Positions 34,686 to 36,270 of a stretch of 64,000 bases of DNA are shown here, piece after piece (within the stretch, counting starts at the first letter, position 1; every line of letters begins with the position of its first letter). The notes beneath the pieces are model-generated. The model was not told the DNA's origin. It worked only from the letters and a program-made list of their open reading frames with translations, and did not search any database. A program made the position numbers and the translations under genes. The stretch lies in assembly GCA_013822735.1 (NCBI GenBank), contig PNKZ01000018.1, positions 62,001 to 126,000 of the forward strand. Reading direction: 5' to 3'. Source of the stretch: Pirellula sp. Its GTDB lineage: Bacteria > Planctomycetota > Planctomycetia > Pirellulales > PNKZ01.

Positions 34686-34821
34686 CCAATGACCAAGCAT
34701 CAAATTCCAAACAAGGACCAATGTCCGAATAAGGAAATGATCGAAACAATTCTTCGACGACTCATACGTATTCGGTCATTTGAGTTTTGAGTTTGTTTGG
34801 AATTTGGTGCTTGGTAGTTGG
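34686..34821. repeat. AT-rich inverted repeat with 29-bp arms, copy 2
   Basis: Arms 34686-34714 and 34793-34821 are near-perfect inverted copies around a 78-bp centre, the same size as copy 1. The right arm ends 12 bases before the tadA start codon, so the element occupies the place where a tadA promoter or leader would be. Confidence 0.8.
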
Positions 34822-35376: not shown

Positions 35377-35510
35377 TTCTCCCCTCTGCCCTTGCGGGAG
35401 AGGGGCCGGGGGTGAGGGGTAAGAATCACCATCGTCCGTAACTACAGCTCACCCCTCACCCGTCTCGCCCTTATCGGGCGAGCCATCCTCTCCCGCAAGG
35501 GGCGAGAGGA
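35377..35510. repeat. GC-rich hairpin repeat, copy A, encoding the end of the DUF559 gene
   Basis: The unit starts with a hairpin around CCCTTGCGGGAG, runs through GGCCGGGGGTGAGGGG, a central AATCACCATCGTC block, CTCACCCCTCACCCGTCTCGCCC, and ends with the inverted hairpin CTCTCCCGCAAGGGG. It is a direct repeat of 36091-36231, with most positions identical apart from the small loop. It covers the stop codon and last 20 codons of the minus-strand DUF559 gene. Confidence 0.8.
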
Positions 35511-35877
35511 AGCCGTTGCTCCCGGGGGTAAGGGGCGCTTGATGCAACGCGCGCCAAATCACCTCGGCGACCGCGTCCCAATCTCGCCAGACCTCGTGAT
35601 TCCAAAACCGCAGCACGCGATAACCTTGCGACTCGAGCCACGCCGTACGCTCTGCATCGTAAGGGCGCTGTAAAGTATGTTGCCCGCCGTCGAGTTCGAC
35701 CACTAAGCGTTCGTCGAAGCAAACGAAGTCGACGATGTAAGAGCCGAGCGCTACTTGGCGACGAAACTTGTGCGCCATGAATCGCCTGCCGCGCAAATGC
35801 GACCATACAAGGCGTTCAGTCTCGGATTGTTTGCGCCGTAGTTCGCGCGCGAAATCTTCGGGCGCAGACATTCCCAT
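35449..35877 (-). CDS. DUF559 (Vsr/PD-(D/E)XK-like) endonuclease domain protein
   Basis: 142 residues. The core is the DUF559 nuclease fold: helix ARELRRKQSETERLVWSHLR, then FRRQVALGSYIVDFVCFDER and VVELDGGQH, giving active-site residues D50, E61 and D63 of the PD-(D/E)XK type, and YRVLRFWNHEV near the end of the core. DUF559 is related to very-short-patch-repair nucleases, but biological roles are unknown. The last 20 residues (from about LSPLAGEDGSPDKGETGEG) are translated from a GC-rich palindromic repeat that supplies the stop codon. A copy of the same repeat family lies right upstream of the start, so the gene is bracketed. Confidence 0.85.
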   Translation of the reverse strand: MGMSAPEDFARELRRKQSETERLVWSHLRGRRFMAHKFRRQVALGSYIVDFVCFDERLVVELDGGQHTLQRPYDAERTAWLESQGYRVLRFWNHEVWRDWDAVAEVIWRALHQAPLTPGSNGFLSPLAGEDGSPDKGETGEG

Positions 35878-35891
35878 GCTCCGACGCTAAT

Positions 35892-35933
35892 GACCCCTCA
35901 CCCCTAGCCCCTCTCCCGCAAGGGGCGAGGGGG
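35892..35933. repeat. GC-rich hairpin repeat, half unit C, upstream of the DUF559 gene
   Basis: A single arm (ACCCCTCACCCCTAGCC then CCTCTCCCGCAAGGGGCGAGG) in the orientation of the right arms of copies A and B, 15 bases beyond the DUF559 start. A further degenerate hairpin (CGCCCCTTGTGGGAGAGGCG) lies at 36064-36083. Confidence 0.65.
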
Positions 35934-36090
35934 AACTGATGGTGCGTCGATTATTGTTCGAGCGCGCAATCGATTCAATGATCGATACTCGCTATGTGCG
36001 GTCGATGGCACTTCAATCCATTGCCGCGCGAGCAGCTGATGGTTGCTTTCCACTATTCTTCCTCGCCCCTTGTGGGAGAGGCGGTGTTCC

Positions 36091-36231
36091 TTCTCCCCTC
36101 TCCCCTTGCGGGAGAGGGGCCGGGGGTGAGGGGTAGGAATCACCATCGTCGTAATCACAGCTCACCCCTCACCCGTCTCGCCCAGTGTTTTCAACACCGG
36201 GCGAGCCACCCTCTCCCGCAAGGGGAGAGGG
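36091..36231. repeat. GC-rich hairpin repeat, copy B
   Basis: Direct repeat of copy A at 35377-35510, including the central AGGAATCACCATCGTC block and both inverted hairpin arms. The loop near the right arm differs (GTGTTTTCAACAC replaces TTAT), itself forming a small hairpin. It lies 40 bases downstream of the stop codon of the large secreted gene (minus strand), between that gene and the DUF559 gene. The 36159-36270 part contains no gene. Confidence 0.8.
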
Positions 36232-36270
36232 GAACTTGCGATTGCTCCGATCTACGGCGGGAACACTGCT

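Follow-up and report, generated by a model that had tools for sequence, protein, structure and literature searches.

DUF559 nuclease genes bracketed by triplex-type repeats: candidate autonomous mobile elements in Pirellula and other bacteria

A DUF559 gene and its repeats in the window

The window, the whole 64,000-nucleotide stretch of a Pirellula sp. contig that was analysed, carries on its minus strand an intact gene for a protein of 142 amino acids (35449..35877), of the PD-(D/E)XK type resembling Vsr and homing endonucleases, which matches the Pfam profile PF04480 (DUF559) with an E value of 3e-42. DUF559, a Pfam domain of unknown function, denotes a small and poorly understood family of bacterial nucleases. 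The gene lies between members of a palindromic repeat family, one of which, repeat dimer A (35377..35511), codes for its last 20 codons (35452-35511) and its stop codon (35449-35451). A second copy, dimer B, is found at 36091..36234 and agrees with dimer A at 126 positions over 135 and 144 nt. Both copies are dimers in which two distinct hairpin units, unit A on the plus strand and unit B on the minus strand, stand head to head. Unit A of the first dimer (35381..35420) consists of a hairpin (35381-35405) and a short tag, GGGGTGAGGG (35409-35418), which mirrors the 3′ arm GGGAGAGGGG (35396-35405) with T replacing A and is directed at the gene. Its unit B (35450..35510) has the hairpin at 35487-35509, a spacer that holds an inner hairpin (CTCGCCC..GGGCGAG) and a tag block CCCCTCACCC. 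The corresponding units of dimer B lie at 36095-36134 (A) and 36163-36233 (B). On the 5′ side of the gene there is in addition one inversely oriented A-type unit (35893..35932, minus strand), its tag directed at the gene start, and a degenerate hairpin arm (36062..36081). The first-pass annotation had described two direct repeat copies, a half unit at 35892-35933 and a 142-residue PD-(D/E)XK-like gene with its last ~20 codons and stop inside the first copy; all of this is borne out, the half unit being the inverted A-type unit. A separate inverted pair of 29 nt, 90% complementary and richer in A+T (34686-34714 and 34793-34821), is located upstream of a tadA-like gene.

Assignment of the window protein to the DUF559/YcjD-like nucleases follows from its profile match, conserved residues of catalytic type and fold. 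Residues E21, W25, F38, R40, Q41, E61, D63, G64, H67, D74 and R90 are invariant across 46 aligned relatives, which by definition means that the window protein holds them; D50, conserved in at least 90% of the 46 sequences, is present as well. The protein falls outside the YcjD equivalog PRK09767 (122.6 bits against a cut-off of 218). An AlphaFold model made with 46 sequences (mean pLDDT 83.6) is closest to Neisseria gonorrhoeae NGO0050 (3hrl, Z 16.3), a DUF559 fold with 46% identity in the structural alignment and a likeness of structure only. Leaving aside some mitoribosomal proteins of similar score (9-10), the nearest solved folds after NGO0050 are the homing endonuclease I-Bth0305I (3r3p, Z 12.4, with a profile match of E 7e-5) and Vsr (1cw0, Z 10.6), again alike in fold only; TnsA scores 7.0. 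HUH/Y1 profiles did not match the window protein, whose matches were DUF559 and a sub-cut-off MTES_1575 only. A defence gene was considered and set aside, PADLOC giving partial matches only (E 0.005-0.008). Among 50,697 phage records, four contain a relative, which covers 54-77% of the query at 36-44% identity.

Around DUF559 genes in general the unit is composed of a C-rich arm, a loop, a G-rich arm, a spacer and the tag; the tag is a mirror of the 3′ arm, and the two covary. To score this relationship, the best hairpin of each flank was chosen blind to the tag, and the tag was compared with the mirror of the 3′ arm, A being allowed to be T. The mean score of 94 units was 0.821, as against 0.725 when tags were swapped between loci, and none of 500 permutations reached 0.821, kinship being uncorrected in this comparison. 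Strict mirror and direct-repeat scores exceeded the swaps too, less strongly (z 11.8, 9.9, 5.7), and a mirror score of at least 0.88 was reached by 47/94 units compared with 3.3% of shuffled windows. Arms and tags pair for instance as GGGAGAGG with GGTGAGGG, GGGAGAAGG with GGATGAGGG and AGAGGGGA with AGGGGTGT. Of 85 units, counted one per related group and side, 71 have a tag directed inward at the gene, an exception by our reading being the Synechocystis locus L150 with outward tags; 35/85 of the best 3′ hairpins start within the reading frame. Judged by sequence, this layout is that of a purine-motif intrastrand triplex. Window unit A, read by hand, belongs to the broad intrastrand-triplex class, with a Y arm, an R arm and a third block mirroring the R arm, and departs from the strict TM_ECO consensus CCCTCNCCC N3-6 GGGNGAGGG N3 GGGNGAGGG by a second spacer of 5 nt.

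The repeats occur in the 6.88-Mb source genome well beyond chance, since the pattern GGGAGAGGN{3,30}GGTGAGGG has 117 matches and its reversed form 0, and CTTGCGGGAGAGGG, with at most one mismatch, has 80 matches against 1. This genome contains three DUF559 genes (loci L001, L002 and L003). All of them are bracketed, the repeat subfamily differing from one gene to the next, and each subfamily is also dispersed as gene-free copies. In a hand count of 100 listed sites of the 117, about 33 belonged to the window type, 14 to the L002 type and 28 to the L003 type; most copies are thus without a nuclease. Dispersal of a repeat family without its gene, as in RAYT/REP systems, therefore describes these repeats. 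The common termini of autonomous and gene-free copies that characterize MITEs were seen for the L002 type only: the nuclease-free sites L161, L162 and L164 share their ends (GTTTGGT..CCCC / GGGG..ACCAAAC) with the DUF559-bearing L002, and L163, likewise nuclease-free, matches L002 at its left end, its right end having diverged. At L167 (G000:C19:93050-94300), L002-type ends surround an unrelated ORF of ~185 codons, as if a repeat pair could carry cargo. Units of the L003 type are also arranged in tandem, repeating every ~190-200 bp, both beside DUF559 genes and elsewhere (L003, L006, G000:C9:212043-212643). A search of Rfam (E<=0.1) for a known RNA gave one match, MIR1858, at 29.8 bits against a gathering threshold of 137 (E 0.017), which we took as chance.

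Bracketing of DUF559 genes and the pairing with repeats

The bracket score of a locus was defined as the best local alignment between the 250-bp left flank and the reverse complement of the right flank, and placements of the same geometry elsewhere in the locus served as controls. In 29 other genomes of the phylum, represented by their best-scoring locus, one per genome and without random draw, 24/29 DUF559 loci scored at least 15 compared with 3/484 control placements; L088 is the same locus as L050. Enrichment of the repeat at DUF559 genes, which the first-pass annotation had set as a test of its proposal, is therefore strong. When the loci scoring below 15 were inspected by eye, L078, L084 and L102 proved to be flanked on both sides and L083 on one side, and at L085 no flanking unit was seen on either side. 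Within the family, 9/11 loci scored at least 15 as against 4/175 controls, L005 and L009 failing; five fragments or long-protein matches (L007, L010, L014-L016) had been left out. A wider contig collection provided 57 loci, two of which were dropped (L017, on a contig shared with L005, and L058, near a contig end); 49 of the 53 scorable loci (55 tried, L045 and L051 being unscorable) beat all their own control placements, the others being L023, L031 (one control higher), L032 and L033. Two lineages contribute 46 of these 55 loci, 22 from Xanthomonadaceae and 24 from Bradyrhizobium-like Alphaproteobacteria, and those inspected mostly occupy the same two sites, so that these 46 are non-independent and the phylum set weighs more. 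Exact empty sites were sought in Xanthomonas and not obtained.

GIY-YIG nuclease genes, taken as controls, scored at least 15 in 4/30 cases (Fisher p 7e-8) or 5/30 without padding, and Y1_Tnp/RAYT loci (30 of 37 matches, from 7 family genomes) in 8/30. A RAYT enzyme was rejected as the mobiliser of the triplex units: by eye, the flanks of the eight scoring Y1_Tnp loci carry repeats of other sequence. One Y1_Tnp locus, L130, has a nuclease-type hairpin nearby as well. The RAYT-like Y1_Tnp genes at L105-L108, L116, L126 and L130 have their own inverted repeats, unlike the triplex units.

Plasmid-collection loci (10 of 43 matches) add E. coli, Neisseria, Klebsiella, Sinorhizobium, Azospirillum and cyanobacteria, and by eye nine of the ten are flanked by hairpin units on at least one side; in the flanks of the Pseudomonas aeruginosa locus L148 such units were absent on inspection. 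At the gonococcal locus L145 units of the triplex type lie to either side of the gene, and proteobacterial and cyanobacterial loci resemble those of planctomycetes in their bracketing. Units are confined to the 3′ side at L023 and L032, the Chloroflexi locus being of this kind. Some loci have further peculiarities. In Leptolinea (L023:8532-10342) two very similar DUF559 frames lie ~1.5 kb apart, the first one shorter, and broken or degraded frames with hairpin units around or downstream of them are present at L012/L014 (G004:C26) and, beside cysP, at the Klebsiella loci L146/L147. On two cyanobacterial plasmids, pAQ6 of PCC 7002 (L152) and one of Synechocystis B12 (L150), the DUF559 genes adjoin DUF1156 genes and are near PIN/VapC-type genes; pAQ6 also has DUF499.

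Repeat type tends to follow nuclease clade as far as the sequences tell. Over 45 loci, nuclease similarity and repeat similarity are correlated with r=0.388, a value reached in 0/2000 permutations. In comparisons of non-coding flanks only, the repeats of L003 score 66 and 60 against those of L006 and L009, its clade partners in another genome, compared with 15 and 13 against those of L001 and L002 in its own genome. The pairing is a tendency and not strict, because L003 repeats also score 38-40 against L004, L008 and L011, though the nucleases there are only 0.24-0.26 similar.

Across the phylum DUF559 is patchy: 43 of 294 genomes have it at E<1e-20 by hand count. Again counted by hand and with kinship uncorrected, a strong DUF559 match is present in 17 of the 33 genomes with at least 10 matches to the repeat pattern, which detects one repeat subclass only, and in 26 of the 261 others (Fisher odds ratio 9.6, p 7e-8). 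The remaining 16/33 repeat-rich genomes had no DUF559 match at E<1e-20. Among them are G151 (282 pattern matches, 89% complete), G278 (94, 77%), G010 (48, 91%) and G211 (41, 99%), and since G211 is 99% complete, incompleteness cannot account for all such cases. In G151 and G211 the nuclease may have been lost, or another mobiliser may be at work.

E. coli ycjD and the presence or absence of units at given sites

Repeats of the same general architecture are known in E. coli as TM_ECO, formerly BoxC or PIT (Holder et al. 2015, PMC4666352). Knowledge of BoxC-type triplex repeats goes back to the 1990s, and according to the portions of that article consulted here TM_ECO is reported in 262 proteobacterial genomes, its E. 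coli loci show instability, the triplex escaped detection by in vivo footprinting in that species and no mobility genes were found near the E. coli sites. The terms 'DUF559' and 'ycjD' are absent from its main text, and in a search of openly licensed PubMed Central full texts no paper was recognised that links DUF559/YcjD to these repeats. TM_ECO and the window units have in common a C-rich arm, a G-rich arm and a second G-rich block mirroring the first, dispersal, inverted A+B pairs and unstable loci; they differ in the spacer between second and third block (5 nt in the window units, 3 in TM_ECO) and in the loop, which measures 32 nt on the left side of L002 compared with 3-6 nt. A pattern made of an E. 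coli-like left end and arm has six matches in two of seven family genomes and none in G000, whose loops exceed the length that the pattern allows.

The DUF559 gene of E. coli is ycjD, located between sapF and fabI. Its product (NCBIfam PRK09767) is annotated DUF559 and of equal size to the window protein, which stays under the equivalog cut-off, and triplex units lie downstream in the order sapF-ycjD-fabI. In K-12 typical triplex units occur on the 3′ side only, the 5′ side having another kind of inverted repeat; an E. coli unit at L156 has a 3-nt TTA spacer. A sapF-ycjD-fabI query was covered to at least 80% in 3362 of 5426 genomes and found any match in 5375. Three genomes without ycjD that we opened have an efflux operon after sapF, an arrangement described in the part of PMC12817139 consulted. 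K-12 is stated in PMC4666352, as seen in part, to carry 23 repeats. From a sample of 60 rows drawn at even steps, the plasmid H215 being dropped, 37 ycjD-positive genomes have 13-30 repeat places (median 20, ycjD site included) and 22 ycjD-negative chromosomes 1-20 (median 4); when the ycjD site is discounted, the two sets differ with a Mann-Whitney p of 8e-9. The negative genomes form two groups, with 1-5 and 12-20 places, and the contrast is confounded by lineage because the lowest positive genomes (13-15) resemble the second of these groups.

Comparison with a relative, as the first-pass annotation had advised, was made in the same-genus genome G005, where tadA (85% identity) still adjoins a homologue of the next gene (50%). 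G005 has no DUF559 match anywhere in its genome, and the interval between the two neighbours has no unit of the window pattern and one hairpin of another type. On the Synechocystis plasmid CP101712 the element of L150 interrupts a DUF1156 gene in a linker, and four homologues of this gene are free of any interruption; the gene was decaying anyway, as a second frame change lies upstream. At L174 (G000:C10:166300-167400) two window-type units are found in frame within a CxxCH-motif, cytochrome-like gene, the first of which corresponds to a gap in the relative L226 and to other sequence in L225 and L229, with L227 and L228 unaligned at this position. E. coli strains differ between yjdP and phnP, where K-12 and 31B19CPO010B have a unit pair that SCU-176 and APEC E19019 lack, a difference that may equally be due to deletion. 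In SCU-176 (L186, position ~455-465) the tag CCCCTCACC remains where the BoxC pair is absent, a single case that hints at a cut between tag and stem. No target-site duplication was recognised by eye at L002 and L161-L164, where an exact empty site for comparison was lacking.

A mobile element with a PD-(D/E)XK nuclease

We propose that DUF559 is probably the autonomous engine of a mobile element that resembles REPtrons and is unrelated to them. The elements of this proposal are the recurrent bracketing, the mostly inward tags, the mirror covariation of tag and stem, the correlation of repeat type with nuclease, common termini, and presence or absence at individual sites. Its autonomous form would be a DUF559 gene between two triplex repeats, the window locus being one copy of such a selfish element, and solo units and head-to-head dimers dispersed over the genome would be the non-autonomous forms. 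On a transiently single strand, for example at a replication fork, the unit might adopt the fold of a Y-R-R intrastrand triplex; the nuclease, a small PD-(D/E)XK enzyme, would recognise its own repeat subtype and cut at or beside stem and tag, after which break repair or strand joining would copy or move the unit. Such a scheme, one enzyme gene serving many dispersed hairpins, would resemble RAYT/REP with an unrelated enzyme and an unrelated DNA structure. We hold the engine reading with somewhat lowered confidence because a 99%-complete genome is rich in repeats and free of DUF559, and because the repeats of L003 and L004 are similar.

The parallel with RAYT/REP drawn by the first-pass annotation is useful as an analogy and fails at the level of the enzyme. 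REPtrons and TIRYTs (Di Nocera et al. 2013, PMC3733652, as far as the article was available to us) have an enzyme gene flanked by a repeat family dispersed elsewhere, head-to-head dimers and repeat-specific partners, as do the loci considered here; the DUF559 enzyme, however, is of the PD-(D/E)XK and not of the HUH/Y1 type, and the tag is a mirror third block. The same source, within these limits, lists CGTC repeats without a dedicated transposase. The annotation had also suggested that gene and hairpins belong to a single mobile unit in which the nuclease either mobilises the repeats or rides along, and had named frequent repeats with no enrichment at DUF559 genes as a refutation. The association and its enrichment are now shown, and a mobiliser role is inferred from them; the repeat is indeed found at many DUF559-free sites, yet this is as expected of non-autonomous copies, and the enrichment at DUF559 genes holds. 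Three features had been missed: one repeat subfamily per DUF559 gene, the triplex-type motif (BoxC/PIT/TM) and the reach to E. coli ycjD.

DUF559 might instead be a passenger, a selfish or repair gene caught between repeats that are moved by replication slippage, inter-repeat recombination or another transposase. Repeat pairs can enclose other genes, as the L002-type ends around an unrelated ORF at L167 illustrate, and some repeat-rich genomes, one of them 99% complete, lack DUF559. We regard this as unlikely, since it leaves unexplained why DUF559 genes are bracketed in several phyla when GIY-YIG genes are so in only 4-5/30 cases, and why repeat subtype correlates with nuclease similarity; moreover, only 8/30 Y1/RAYT loci score at least 15, with repeats of other sequence. 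A host function appears quite improbable to us as well, although a Vsr-like repair nuclease could process repeat structures, with the adjoining repeats serving autoregulation or retention of the pair and no mobility being involved. The fold is near that of Vsr (Z 10.6), the Caulobacter DUF559 protein VsrA has been tied to DNA damage and cytosine methylation (PMC12907096, consulted in part), and the instability of E. coli repeat loci described in PMC4666352, in the portions cited above, would fit too. A host factor would not be expected to be as patchy as DUF559 is (43/294 phylum genomes at E<1e-20), nor would the paralogues of the source genome each be expected to have their own repeat type, and the element within the DUF1156 gene is a trace expected of a mobile element. 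Simple coincidence of base composition or of ordinary transcription terminators with a small gene is scarcely credible: the hairpins are G+C-rich and the 3′ units overlap or follow the stop codon (35/85 start inside the frame), but 117 pattern matches stand against 0 for the reversed pattern, the tags covary, the 5′ units are directed inward also, and control placements seldom score, so that the controls already contradict it.

We lean, by a narrow balance, to the wider view that DUF559/YcjD nucleases are the autonomous engines of bacteria-wide mobile elements with intrastrand-triplex ends, with BoxC/PIT/TM and similar G+C-rich repeats of planctomycetes, proteobacteria and cyanobacteria as the non-autonomous offspring. 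Both halves, DUF559 and the triplex repeats, were known separately; in the open library searched, neither their pairing nor a mobile element that combines a PD-(D/E)XK nuclease and triplex ends was found. We rate the proposed element as new in kind because the defining enzyme of RAYT/REP is absent and the likeness to homing endonucleases is one of fold only. If mobilisation fails, a new association of known parts stays. Should the wider view hold, a transposition-like system would rest on a PD-(D/E)XK nuclease where others have a DDE, HUH or serine/tyrosine enzyme. Two open questions, the partner gene of BoxC-type repeats and the function of DUF559, thereby merge into one that can be approached in K-12, which has both ycjD and the repeats. 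Should the nuclease only process the repeats, the enzyme behind the known instability in E. coli would be named; should it move them, the chemistry of mobile elements would extend outside the known transposase classes.
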